From Branchiostoma floridae (Eukaryota; Chordata; Leptocardii; Amphioxiformes; Branchiostomatidae), in NCBI RefSeq assembly GCF_000003815.2, contig NC_049990.1:3669496-3733495 (forward strand): a stretch of DNA of 64,000 nt. Reading direction: 5' to 3'. Positions 9,384 to 42,300 of the stretch are shown here, one piece after another (positions within the stretch are counted from its first letter, which is position 1; each line of letters begins with the position of its first letter). A program made the translations under genes and the position numbers. The notes beneath the pieces are model-generated. The model did no database searches. It saw only the letters and a list, made by a program, of their open reading frames with translations, and had not been told where the DNA came from.

Positions 9384-12300
9384 ATGAAATTGTGCCCTGT
9401 AATTGGTCTGGTGTTCCTGTCAACACTACACACAGGTAAGGTTTGCCGTGGAAGGGTGTGTGTGGGGTATGTGTGTTTTGTGTGTGTGGGGTGTGGGGTG
9501 GGGGGATGGAGGGGTGTTTACTGTGGCTAAAAATGATCCCCTGGCTATACACCTGAATTATGTTGCTATGGCTATGGGGTAGACATTGTTACTTACGTAC
9601 TGGTTACTTGCTAAGGTGTCCTCAACTGTACGTCAAGCTGTCTGCGTCAAGGTTTCGTCGTCTTTGACTATCCTACGCCACCCCTGGAGTCCTGAGTCAG
9701 TTCATCCAGATCCTTCAGCTTTATTTTGTATTGTTGATTCCCATGGACAGATTAGCATACTCAAGAACACAGTTTAGCTTAAACCAATTTGTTTATTTGT
9801 TTATTTATTTATTTTCTGGATCTTCTTCTTGGCTTGATCCACGTGCTCTTAATATGATAACGTACATTTATTAAAATTCTAGATCTCTGACTCTGTCCGC
9901 ACAGCCACATGGGCCTATCGGTCGGAGGAACGGTTACTGGACGCCCTTTTGTCCGGTCTGCACAGAGACGTGATTCCCATGGTGGATAACAGGACCGCAG
10001 TGGTGGTGGACGTCTCTATGACTGTAGCCAGCATTCTGGCAGTGGTACGTAAAGCTCCTGGCTTCCCGACCTTCTCAAGACCTACCTACCTACCTACCTA
10101 TCTAGCTAGTCCCTTGACCTCTAGGTCGTTGGGGGGGGGGGGGGGGGGGGGGGACAAGGTAGCCATGAAGATAGAGTTGTCTCCAGTTTGTCTCTCAAGA
10201 CCATGCTTGGGAGTTAGTCGTGATCAAGGTTGAGAGTTGGTCGTCAAGGTTGCCTACTAGTCTTTAAAGTCGTCTGATAGCTGAACGATCTGACTACTAG
10301 TGAAAAGTGAATCTGAAACGAACGCGAAAATGGAACTAGAATGTGAGGAATTCCTGTACTCAAAACTTTGGGAAGTGGCCGAGAGCAAAGTATCGGAATG
10401 TTTGTCATTGGCACTATCGGCTGCTTTGATTATGCTTTTCATATGGCGTCATTTGTGACACGTTGAAGTACAAGGCAGGTCTGTTAAGTAAGGGCATACA
10501 GCGAAGTCATAAAGTTTCTCAGAAACGTTTTTTTTTCACTTCGAACGCTGAATATGCATCTTTCTGTTTGTTTAGGATGACAAGAACCAAGAACTGAAGA
10601 CGTTGAGCTGGCTGCAAATGGTGAGTTTATTCTCTTGCATGTAAATAAGATAAAACCAATATGTCAGCTGTGTATACTGATATTCAATACGTTACACAAA
10701 CAATGAGTTAAATGTGTCAGATAGCCTGTGATGCCCGCCGTCCCGGTCCCATGCTATGTTTTACCATGCTCTAATGATTGATGTTTGTGTGGAGTTGGAA
10801 TAACTGCCGTCTCAGAAGAAATCTGTAACGTCCCCAGTCACGGTTTCATGTTGTTTCCCCCTTCTCTTATGCCGCATGTCTTTGCAGAATTGGAAGGACT
10901 ACGTACCGTTTCGAATAGAATTTGTAGCTTCCCCCGTCACGGTTCATGTTGTTCCCTCCTTCTCTTATGCCTCATGTCTTTGCAGAATTGGAAGGACTAC
11001 GTGCCGTTTCAGATAGCATCTGTAGCTTCCCCCGTCACGGTTTATGTTGTTTCTCCCTTCTCTTATACCTCATGTCTTTGTAGAGTTGGAAGGAATGCTG
11101 TCTCAGGTGGAATCTGTAGCTTACTCCGTCACGATTTCATGTTGCCCCCCCCCCTTCTCTTATGCCTCATGTCCTTGCAGAGTTGGAAGGACTGCTGTCT
11201 CAGGTGGAATCTGTAGCTTCCCCCGTCACGGTTTCATGTTGTGTTCCCCCCTTCTCGTATGCCTCATATCTTTGCAGAATTGGAAGGACTGCGTGCCGTT
11301 TCAGATAGCATCTGTAGCTTCCCCCGTCACGGTTTATGTTGTTCCCCCCTTTTCGTATGCCTCATGTCTTTGCAGAATTGGAAGATAGAATCTGTAGCTT
11401 CCCCCGTCACGGTTTCATGCTGTGTTTCCCCTGCTCTATTGCCTCATATCTTTGCAGAGTTGGAAAGACTACCGTCTGAGGTGGAATCCGGGGCAGTACG
11501 ACAACATCAGGAAGATCAACATCCCGTCTGACCAGCTGTGGAGACCGGACCTGCTGCCATACAACTCGTGAGTCAAGTTTGCAAAAGAAAGAACAATGGT
11601 GTTAAAAATTTTAAGTCATACTTTAGAGAAAGATAATTTTCTCCTCCTACTGTCAAACGGACGCATTTTTGTATGTCTAGATCTATTTCTCTTTTACCGG
11701 TACTTCCATGGCTATTGCTCCAACGATCTCACACTACTTGTCCCTCCACTGAAAGCCTTTCAGCGCAACACTAGGTTTTCTTCAAACTCACATAATTATA
11801 TAGTACTGTTCAATCGCCAGTTTCCAAGTCCTTCTAGAGCAAGAGTTTCTTTCCCCGGACAGTCAAATAATAAAAATATCTTGACCTCAACTGTTTACCT
11901 CCTGTCTACAACTTATCAGCTACTCAAAACAAATGTTCACCGCTATCTCCGAGTACAACGAGTTTCCAACTTCTTAGTTCATTGCCTTGAAGTGGTCTAA
12001 TGACCTTGCTCTGAACAATCCCGTTAAAAAATGTAAACAGATCTCAGTACTTGAACTTGAAAAAGTTATCAGAAAAGCTCACGTCTTTATGTTCCTTCCC
12101 TCCCAAACTAGGCGCACCCTTGACAGCGGTCTTGACCTGACGGTAGATGCGATCGTGAGCTCGGACGGCGAAGTGACGTTCATCCCGAAGTGGCTGACGC
12201 AGACCTCGTGCGCGTTTGACGCCACCTACTACCCCTTCGACGAGCAGACGTGCGACCTGAAAGTGGGGTCATGGACCCACCATAACCGGGAAATAGACCT

Positions 12301-39300: not shown

Positions 39301-42300
39301 TTACTTTTTGGAAACAGGTTTCAGATATGAACTGCTGTAAGCTTTACTTTGTCATTTTCTTGGCCACCATAACAAGATGTGCATTCTTCATTATCAATAA
39401 TACAACATACAAATGAAACTTCAATGGTAAGCAATTTTAGTAGACAGTTACTGACTCTGTGTTCATCCAAGAACTCTGGTGTGCAGGTCCAGGGCGCATC
39501 TCTGACGATCTCATCGATGTAGCGACAGTGGCGCAAGGCCTCGTATCTCTCCGTCTCAGACAGAACAGTGTAGCCTTTCATACTGTGGGTCAGGTTGTCG
39601 CTGCACACTAGGGGAAAAAGCCAGCATGTCATTTGCTTGATGTCTTATAGTTAGTCTAATTTATGATTGTCGCTGCATACTGTCAGGGGAGAAAAGTCAG
39701 TGTATGAGACATTTGATGTTTTACAACTAGTAGTATTCTGTATTTGATTATACTGCTCGTATCTCTCCGTCTCTGACAAAACAGTGTAACCTTTCATGCT
39801 GTGAGTCAGGTTGTCGCTGCACACTGTGGGCAAAAGAGCCAGTGTGTGAGACATTTGATGTTTTACAACTAGTAGTATCCTGTATTATACTGTTATAACC
39901 AGAACCGTGTAGCCTTTCATACTGTGGGTCAGGTTGTCACTGCACACTGGGGGGAAAAGAGCCAGTGTGCATGTGAGACATTTGATATTTTGTTACAGTA
40001 CCATTTTCACAGCAATCCCTTTCATAGAAGGGAAAAAAGATCAGCTGACAGTGACAAAGACCTTGGGTTAGATTTTGGTATTAAGCCTTTCATTATGTGG
40101 GTCAGGTGGTCACTGCACACTGTGAGGAAAAGAGCCAGTGAGTGGTTATTTGATATTTTTTATTTACCGTACGATTTTCACTGCAATCCTTTTTGTAAAA
40201 AGGGCAACTGACAAAGGCCTGCCGTTAGGTTTAGAGTTAGCCTTTCACGCTGTGGGTTACATTGTTGATCTCTTCAATGTCACTGACGAAAGACAACATC
40301 TGAAATGTCTGACCATTTCCAAAATCCTATCCAGTCGCGTATCTTATTACAATGTACCTGGATGTCTGACATACCTTCATCTACGTAATACAGTGTGAGC
40401 TTTTGCTATTGATTAATAATAACATTTGACTAATATACCAACAGGCTACAGAGTAATAGTGAAAGTCTATCCCGTACCTCCCACGATCAGGTAGGTGTTG
40501 GGGAACAGGTTCTTGGCCTGCATCAGTGCCCGGGCGTGGCCTGCGTGGAACAGGTCATAGATGCCGTCTGCGTACACCCTGATTGGTCGTGTCACTGAAA
40601 CAGAAATACGTTATGTTTATCTAAAATAACACTCAATCTTGTGCTACAGTACAGGGCTCGAAATTCATCTTTGGGATTAGGTGCACTGGTGCACCCAGCC
40701 TAAAAAATTGGGTGCACCAAAAACTTTTTGGGTGCACCACTTAAATTTAAGTAATAACCTAATAATAAAACTTAGTTACAAGCTTTCAAATTCTTAAACA
40801 AGTACCATGACAGACAATCTTATTATCTTTCTAACACTTAGATCTTATCATGTCAAGAATATGATGTATAGTCTAGTATACTTTGATATCTTTACATACA
40901 TAAATGTAAGAAAATATTTGGGTGCACCCTGTGTACCCACAGAAAATAATTAGGTGCACAGCTCCAATTTTGGGTGCACCTGGGTGCACATGTACCCAGT
41001 ATTTCGAGCCCTGCAGTATGTGTCAGCTTTGTCAGGTTTATATCGAAGAGTGCAGGGGTCCTTCCCGGTGTGAGTGGTTCAACCCTTCAGTCCTATGGCT
41101 GCACCTAAGGCAATTACTGTCGTATTGAAGTCACCTGATTGGCGCCGAATGGCAGCTTGCTCAGACCCTTGCTACAGTCATATTGAGGTCACTTGAGTGG
41201 CACCGAATGGCAGCTTGCTCCGGACACTTGCATTTGAAAGCATCTTTTTCTTTCTTTCAGTTGTGAGGACTGAAACTTGTACTCCCATGTGTGATGTCAG
41301 TACTTACCTCTCCCAGAGAGCGCCTCCTCCCGAGTGACTCTCTTCCATGGCTCCAGACTGGGAGGCAATTCCTCTGTGAAGGGAGCCGGCGCATAGTGGG
41401 CCTGGAGAGGAGTCAACAGCAAGGAACATCAACTACATGTACCTACCCCTACTCTGCAGGGAGGCAGGGGGTTAGCCTCTGCCAGGCTCCATGGATTGCT
41501 GGTCAAATAGTAGAAATTGGACAAATACAGTCAATAATACACTAGGGGAGTCAGCCAACCAAAGGAGTCAGTATGCAACCCATGGAATACTGACTCCTAT
41601 GGCCGGTCGACTTCCCTAGCGCACTCACTATATACTATTTGACCAGCGATTGGTAGAGCCTGGTATAGGCTAGCCTGGGTAGTAGAGGATCCATGCAAGT
41701 CTTGGGCCTATTCTCGTGATCCTGCAAGACCAGCTCCCTCCATGAGCAAGATGTACGTACTGAGCAGACATTGACATTTTTTAGGTACATTGTCTTACCT
41801 GTAGCCACTGATTGACGACTATTCTTAAGGAACATTAATTTTCATGTTGGTTCTGAAGATAGAACTGCACTAAACAATTACTACTTCTTAAAGTTCAAAT
41901 CAGATAGGTCTAAAAGTAAAACTCTGTGTATTGTCTATGGAAACAACAAAACTCAAATTTAAACGGATGAAGGGAACCATACTTTTTTTTTAATGAAAGC
42001 CATGACTTAGCACATATCTAATTAAAAGCAAATCTAAAGTGCCCTTAATGATTGACTAATCACTTCCTTTTGAATTTCTGATACAGCACTATATTTAAGC
42101 AATCAACAATTTCAGCTGCTTGTTGTAGTAGATAGAATCTAATGAAGAACCTACCAGTGGCTGCTTGTCGTAGTAGATGGAGTCTAGCGACTCCTCGGCT
42201 CGCCGCTTCCTCTTGGATATGCTGGACATGATGGGGTCGTCTGCACTGGACAAGATGTAGCCTTTGTTCTTGTCACTCTCAAGGGTGCTCATGGGCTGGG

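Follow-up and report, generated by a model that had tools for sequence, protein, structure and literature searches.

Four adjacent genes of the lancelet Branchiostoma floridae, encoding a nicotinic acetylcholine receptor (nAChR), nitrobindin, ATG4 and PCYT1A, carry tandem arrays in which partial copies of an exon edge lie in the neighboring intron. All four lie in a stretch of 64,000 nucleotides (assembly GCF_000003815.2, contig NC_049990.1, positions 3,669,496 to 3,733,495 of the forward strand), referred to here as the window and numbered from its first letter. Such junction arrays are already known from lancelets as mirages, and they occur on both sides of exons. What is new is that in three of the arrays the intact intronic copies (decoys) differ from the working exon solely at silent positions, and that at ATG4 exon 3 these silent variants form a recombinant pattern. 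No report of silent-only divergence in such copies turned up in the open-licence PMC literature. We give even odds to the explanation that unequal exchange rotates the copies through the working slot, so that selection cleans the whole array. The broader reading, that junction mirages supply spare exon edges able to stand in for one another, whose intronic copies are under protein-level selection and keep ancient silent variation, is put forward tentatively, at somewhat under even odds.

Silent-only divergence of the intact decoys

A codon-level comparison was made between each copy and the working exon of its own array. The four decoys of ATG4 exon 3 carried 1, 3, 4 and 5 silent changes and no nonsynonymous change. 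At ATG4 exon 9, decoys 27879, 28065 and 28223 showed 6, 3 and 0 silent changes and no others, the last over 13 codons, after which an 8-base deletion was seen by eye; decoys 27985 and 28317 were decayed (copies b and e, with 2 silent and 3 nonsynonymous, and 1 silent and 2 nonsynonymous changes). At PCYT1A exon 4, the two nearest decoys had 5 and 2 silent changes and no others, and the two farthest were decayed (c3, 1 silent and 3 nonsynonymous; c4, 3 silent and 2 nonsynonymous). Altogether, every one of the 29 pairwise differences in the nine intact decoys was synonymous, as was every one of the 21 distinct codon sites, seven in each array. The share of synonymous changes expected without constraint is about 28%, giving P ~2e-12 for 21 of 21 sites; with a silent share of 0.42, as for a free decoy compared with a constrained exon, P was ~1e-8, both values applying to an intact set that was picked after inspection. 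When all arrays were taken with their decayed copies, minus two ATG4 exon 9 copies, 32 synonymous-only sites stood against 26 others (P 3.6e-6). The intact copies thus look constrained at the protein level, as judged from their sequence. Their silent divergence is also high, with a mean of 3.2 silent differences per intact copy versus 0.6 expected for ~16 silent sites at the silent diversity of B. floridae (piS 0.0397, as given in an excerpt of PMC12862219).

Recombinant silent sites in ATG4 exon 3 and a simulation of the proposed exchange

The test for exchange covered ATG4 exon 3. All 8 variable sites of this array, the split codon included, were third positions, and the variants were arranged in blocks along the array. 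Five site pairs failed the four-gamete test among the five copies, with a minimum number of recombination events (Rm) of 2, a result reached with P 0.001-0.013 on recombination-free trees. The four 24-base spacers were identical versus 8 varying silent sites (Fisher P 0.0005), a comparison that presumes spacers free to vary; it suggests that the silent variants predate the amplification of this array and were brought in.

The state of the three arrays that contain intact decoys would be explained if unequal crossing-over or conversion, acting mostly in the well-matched exonic part, cycled the copies through the single working slot. An amino-acid change arising in a decoy would be exposed and purged on its next turn in that slot, silent changes would stay, and the array would become a seed bank of old silent variants. 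Copies too truncated or too diverged for exchange would then decay. This process was examined in a small forward simulation in which amino-acid changes were lethal in the working copy and a floor of three copies was imposed. Without exchange, or with one-way birth of decoys, 55-71% of differences were nonsynonymous, and at most 1.4% of decoys had at least three silent changes and no others. With exchange at ~180 times the nonsynonymous mutation rate, decoys carried 2.4-4.5 silent and 0.5-0.6 other changes, the nonsynonymous share was 0.10-0.17, and 26-47% of decoys had at least three silent changes and no others, which was observed in 6 of 13 copies of the three arrays. With 60-fold exchange the corresponding values were 3.2-4.2 silent and 1.4-2.4 other changes, a share of 0.26-0.42, and 4-22% of decoys. 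When working exons were compared with one another in the simulation, each unit showed 2.1-4.4 silent differences at the highest exchange versus ~0.7-0.8 without exchange.

Several observations count against rotation through the working slot. With every one of the 13 copies in these three arrays counted, the nonsynonymous share was 0.22 (10 of 46 differences), a value between those simulated at 60-fold and 180-fold exchange; four of the 13 copies were decayed, and a fifth has the 8-base deletion. The silent-only pattern was found in just three of seven arrays, and nonsynonymous changes are present in nAChR, in nitrobindin (1 silent versus 2 nonsynonymous) and in both donor-side copies, those of PCYT1A exon 6 (3 versus 2, plus a 2-base insertion) and exon 1 (2 versus 1). 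The nAChR units were decayed, with 4 silent-only sites versus 16 others, a figure partly inflated since these alignments run past the homologous part or slip out of register with it; in a second, narrower comparison the same inflation affects the counts for copies 10986 and 10888. The spacers of ATG4 exon 3 hold an acceptor and are possibly constrained themselves. Without the copy floor the simulated array was lost in 8 of 12 exchange runs, and in the four runs where it persisted, which had lower rates, 49-57% of differences were nonsynonymous. The simulated profile from near to far copies was flat at high exchange, versus the graded series of silent changes at ATG4 exon 3. Lastly, the data represent one haplotype of one gapped assembly.

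The strongest of the rival explanations, though one that we consider unlikely, is that exon edges are copied one way and drift neutrally, the silent-only differences being alleles captured as young arrays formed between two haplotypes. This explanation fits the decay seen in nAChR, in nitrobindin and at two exons of PCYT1A (the exon 6 copy and the farthest copies of exon 4), and the identical spacers show the ATG4 exon 3 array to be young. However, the most diverged intact copies hold 5-6 silent differences in 20-27 codons, versus ~0.6 expected at a piS of 0.04, and the PCYT1A exon 4 and ATG4 exon 9 arrays are not young, as their copies are 76-86% identical with the intron parts included. The one-way simulation, moreover, yielded 55-70% nonsynonymous differences.

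Splice signals at the decoys

Decoy acceptors were scored with a matrix built from the window's own sites, the home junction being left out each time; the farthest copy of PCYT1A exon 4 (c4, 40265) lay outside this scoring. The AG was kept in 19 of the 22 scored decoys, including 6 of 7 in the nAChR array, and was lost in nAChR decoy 10792 and, at the matching place, in both nitrobindin decoys. Of the 19 acceptors, 17 scored above the real acceptor of their own array, decoys within one array being non-independent. Splicing to a decoy with subsequent read-through would run into an in-frame stop ahead of the real exon in 16 of 19 cases; decoy 11376 would shift the frame, and decoys 28317 and 36681 would stay open, adding 19 or 28 codons in frame. 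Read-through use of the ATG4 exon 3 decoys was considered as a candidate and rejected, as all four run into the same in-frame TAA after ~84 bases. At ATG4 exon 9 (28374, plus strand) and at four of its five decoys (27879, 27985, 28065 and 28223), the acceptor is followed directly by a donor-like site (AG/GTAAC), as in recursive splicing, and these sites scored 7.7 as donors.

The decoys are probably tolerated because each copies one exon edge and its partner splice site is missing, and exon definition would select the copy joined to a full exon. The presence of strong decoy acceptors that lack a full exon is consistent with exon definition, as far as we infer. Alternatively, the decoys might be functional, serving as alternative acceptors for truncated transcripts or transcripts targeted to nonsense-mediated decay, or as recursive-splicing ratchets at ATG4 exon 9, and be constrained for that reason. 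The retained AGs, the high scores, the frequent in-frame stops, the two decoys that would lengthen the product in frame and the donor-like sites of ATG4 exon 9 all speak for such a role. We nevertheless regard it as improbable, in that unproductive splicing requires conserved signals rather than conserved amino acids, the nitrobindin decoys have no AG, and the AG/GT arrangement is no general feature, being supplied by the coding part of exon 9.

Detection of the junction arrays

The arrays were detected by self-BLAST of the whole window, run independently of the list of arrays in an earlier note on this DNA. It returned 19 local direct-repeat families, six of which crossed a splice junction, so that 6 of 62 junctions were hit. 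The six arrays (five at acceptors, one at a donor) affect both sides of exons, with best E-values from 3e-26 to 0, and vary in unit sequence and length (shortest periods 97, 217, 108, 84, 134 and 144 bp). Tandem Repeats Finder recovered three of them. When eight junctions were aligned to their own introns, copies were seen at nAChR exon 4, nitrobindin exon 2, ATG4 exons 3 and 9, and PCYT1A exons 4 and 6, and no intron copy of PCYT1A exons 1 and 7 was found at E 0.01. Exons are numbered by our models, which are without upstream exons; exons 4 and 10 of ATG4 and exons 2, 5 and 7 of PCYT1A in the earlier note correspond to ATG4 exons 3 and 9 and PCYT1A exons 1, 4 and 6 here.

Two weaker repeats accompany these arrays. 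At PCYT1A exon 1, 27 exon-end bases recur 45 bases downstream with 23 identical, a match reached in 0 of 2000 shuffles and ranking fifth among the 62 junctions, and below the thresholds of both the self-BLAST and the junction alignment at E 0.01. The best GT near this copy scored -3.7 versus 8.4 for the real donor. The acceptor copy at PCYT1A exon 7 reached 37 bits in the self-BLAST (E 0.023), a score attained by 0 of 2000 shuffles.

These results bear on the claim of the earlier note that seven junction-spanning arrays occur in four genes. Six were recovered independently; the seventh, at PCYT1A exon 1, is a real repeat whose copy leaves out the donor. The nitrobindin copies had been described as intron end, acceptor and exon start, and copies of that length with their few exonic bases do exist, except that neither has an AG at the matching place. 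That several genes are affected, by arrays of unrelated sequence and unit length and beyond chance, was borne out.

Table 1. Junction arrays and related exon-edge repeats, in window coordinates
Feature	Position	Strand	Description
nAChR exon 4 acceptor array	10714..11488	+	units of ~97-98 bp, at most ~31 exonic bases each; real exon 11458-11567
Nitrobindin exon 2 acceptor array	19835..20379	-	units of 217-219 bp, ~19 exonic bases; two decoys; real exon 19706-19853
ATG4 exon 3 acceptor array	24334..24864	+	units of 108 bp (84 exonic + 24 spacer); four decoys; real exon 24781-24923
ATG4 exon 9 acceptor array	27832..28464	+	five decoys of unequal exonic length; real exon 28374-28516
PCYT1A exon 4 acceptor array	39540..40265	-	four decoys; real exon 39456-39607
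PCYT1A exon 6 donor duplication	37009..37246	-	spacing 134 bp; 57 exonic bases + donor
PCYT1A exon 1 end repeat	42115..42186	-	exon end 42160-42186 again at intronic 42115-42141; donor uncopied
PCYT1A exon 7 weak acceptor copy	36597..36712	-	1 exonic base; decoy AG at 36681

Since the window contains four N gaps, the arrays might be artefacts of assembly, with divergent haplotypes or misplaced reads joined at repeats. There is precedent in excerpts of two papers, one judging the draft-genome version of a published mirage mis-assembled (PMC3087553), the other reporting that the number of PGBD5 repeats differs between two assemblies (PMC3902484). Against this, none of the gaps touches any of the six arrays, the five 108-bp units of ATG4 exon 3 tile exactly and each has different variants, and the PGBD5 arrays, according to the same excerpt of PMC3902484, were re-checked by Sanger and Illumina sequencing. 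We therefore think an artefact quite improbable. Least credible of all is that the decoys are intermediates of intron gain, each becoming an extra exon segment upstream, joined by splicing to a site within the old exon, as proposed for globin mirages in an excerpt of PMC3087553, given that constraint extends over the whole exonic part of each intact decoy rather than one side of a new donor, and that the few candidate site pairs viewed by eye at ATG4 exon 3 would break the frame.

Placement of the arrays relative to splice junctions

We further compared the position of the repeats with random placement, for which the extra copies were removed and units of the observed lengths were dropped randomly in gene bodies. 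With eight repeats, six crossed a junction versus 2.3 expected (P=0.007, or 0.003 when 15 bases were required on each side). With two non-junction repeats added, one being the 31-bp repeat at 13077-13135 brought in from Tandem Repeats Finder, six of ten crossed versus 2.9 expected (P=0.037, or 0.018 with 15 bases on each side). All four P values are optimistic, as the window was picked because of the pattern. The test was run apart from the stop-codon array at 15990-16277, the pair at 16127-16308 in the 3' untranslated region, the dispersed pairs 17639/19000 and 17718/19030, the intergenic families and PCYT1A exon 1. The enrichment at junctions is modest, and genes as compact as these would be expected to show much of the pattern anyway; detection may also favor exon-edge copies, one partner being conserved.

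The exon fraction of the six units ranged from 0.09 to 0.78, compatible with a uniform position of the junction within the unit (Kolmogorov-Smirnov P=0.36), and arrays were also found off splice junctions (45495-46195, 38420-38620 and 13077-13135). The earlier note had ascribed the arrays to one process acting at junctions, which these findings do not favor, and duplication driven by splice signals is unneeded to account for them. It had also taken as a finding that the real exon is always the copy nearest the exon body; we discount this polarity as evidence because geometry alone places it there: whichever copy is contiguous with the exon body is by definition the exon. Our data point to tandem duplication as a general process, some products of which survive at exon edges, rather than to a process directed at junctions. 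These lancelet-type mirages would have arisen as tandem duplications that crossed a splice junction by chance and left their extra copies in the intron.

Two of the arrays off splice junctions deserve description. The array at 45495-46195, recovered by Tandem Repeats Finder, has a 190-bp unit in 3.7 copies and is intergenic, lying between PCYT1A and the gene that follows. The other, a degenerate array of ~20-bp units (15986-16277, plus strand), contains the nAChR stop codon and extends into the 3' untranslated region, an edge duplication at the coding end.

Gene models and neighboring features

The four genes were modeled by hand with 34 coding exons in total. The splice sites in the models (32 acceptors, 30 donors) are AG or GT, the sole exception being the donor of nitrobindin exon 2 (19704-19706, minus strand), which has no GT (CTACA/TTTACA) while frame and homology carry on; this may be a sequencing error, an allele or an unusual site. 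Compared with solved structures, the products matched ATG4B (E 5.9e-143), CCT-alpha for PCYT1A (E 5.6e-125), the nitrobindin of THAP4 (E 4.2e-46) and, in the ligand-binding part only, nAChR alpha-4 (E 2.8e-48); Pfam matches were also obtained for nAChR and nitrobindin. Within nAChR, segments 12707-12893 and 13350-13530 (plus strand) are two versions of one exon, encoding loop C with the vicinal cysteines, and each is open with exons 5 and 8. Their sequence makes it probable that they are mutually exclusive exons altering the ligand site.

The two further genes on the right side of the window contain none of the 19 repeat families. The first consists of adjacent frames at 53207-57990 (minus strand) with an NB-ARC and a HEPN_DZIP3 match, which perhaps form one NLR-like gene, and the second is methyltransferase-like as judged by eye. 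A repeated element at 42365-42437 and 42541-42607 has by eye a tRNA-like B-box look and is perhaps a short interspersed nuclear element; a search of the window with ARAGORN found no tRNA.

Implications and comparison with known systems

The earlier note had linked these arrays to the junction minisatellites, or mirages, of an amphioxus Adh locus, and excerpts of PMC3087553 and PMC3902484 uphold the link. The former describes acceptor and donor mirages in the lancelet globins BflGb6 and BflGb9, citing Adh3, with copy number that differs between haplotypes and with somatic instability; the latter describes arrays of 60 and 108 bp in PGBD5 and cites a mirage in TnC. Further excerpts mention several tandem repeats in lancelet huntingtin scaffolds (PMC2206037), and whole exons or pieces of exons, in some cases with canonical splice sites, that sit in introns of VCBP3 next to similar coding exons (PMC2632668, data not shown there). 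No wider survey of lancelet mirages turned up in the open-licence PMC literature.

Earlier descriptions treat mirages as minisatellite-like structures ignored by splicing. If copies are kept clean by rotation, selection would reach DNA that is non-coding in any single chromosome, silent-site diversity at such exons would be misread, and exchange would be an ongoing source of change at exon edges, perhaps including new introns. Exons with active mirages should then show silent diversity raised several-fold, the increase being confined to the duplicated part. How splicing finds the right acceptor when several others outscore it could also be tested directly at these loci.

As far as the excerpts go, the arrays in this window share with the mirages of Adh3, the globins, PGBD5 and TnC the tandem copies over an exon-intron boundary, on either side of the exon, with splice signals often retained, and unit lengths that depend on the locus (10-160 bp in the published cases). 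They differ in that several arrays occur here in four adjacent genes, and in the silent-only divergence and recombinant silent sites, which the excerpts of PMC3087553 and PMC3902484 do not describe. The likeness to VCBP3 lies in partial exons with splice sites inside introns; the array structure is known here and is not given in the excerpt of PMC2632668.

Other comparisons concern the process. Minisatellites evolve in concert by unequal crossing-over, which brings unit turnover and mosaic copies. Mosaic copies recur at ATG4 exon 3, and unit turnover is proposed for the present arrays, with the difference that one copy is a working exon edge and selection acts at one slot. Intron gain of the type proposed by Rogers, for which a potato RdRp gene is reportedly a case, likewise involves intragenic tandem duplication with splice signals, but no new intron is shown here. 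Mutually exclusive exons, of which the nAChR gene holds a candidate pair, also place duplicated exon sequence within one gene, whereas the arrays described here copy part of an exon only.

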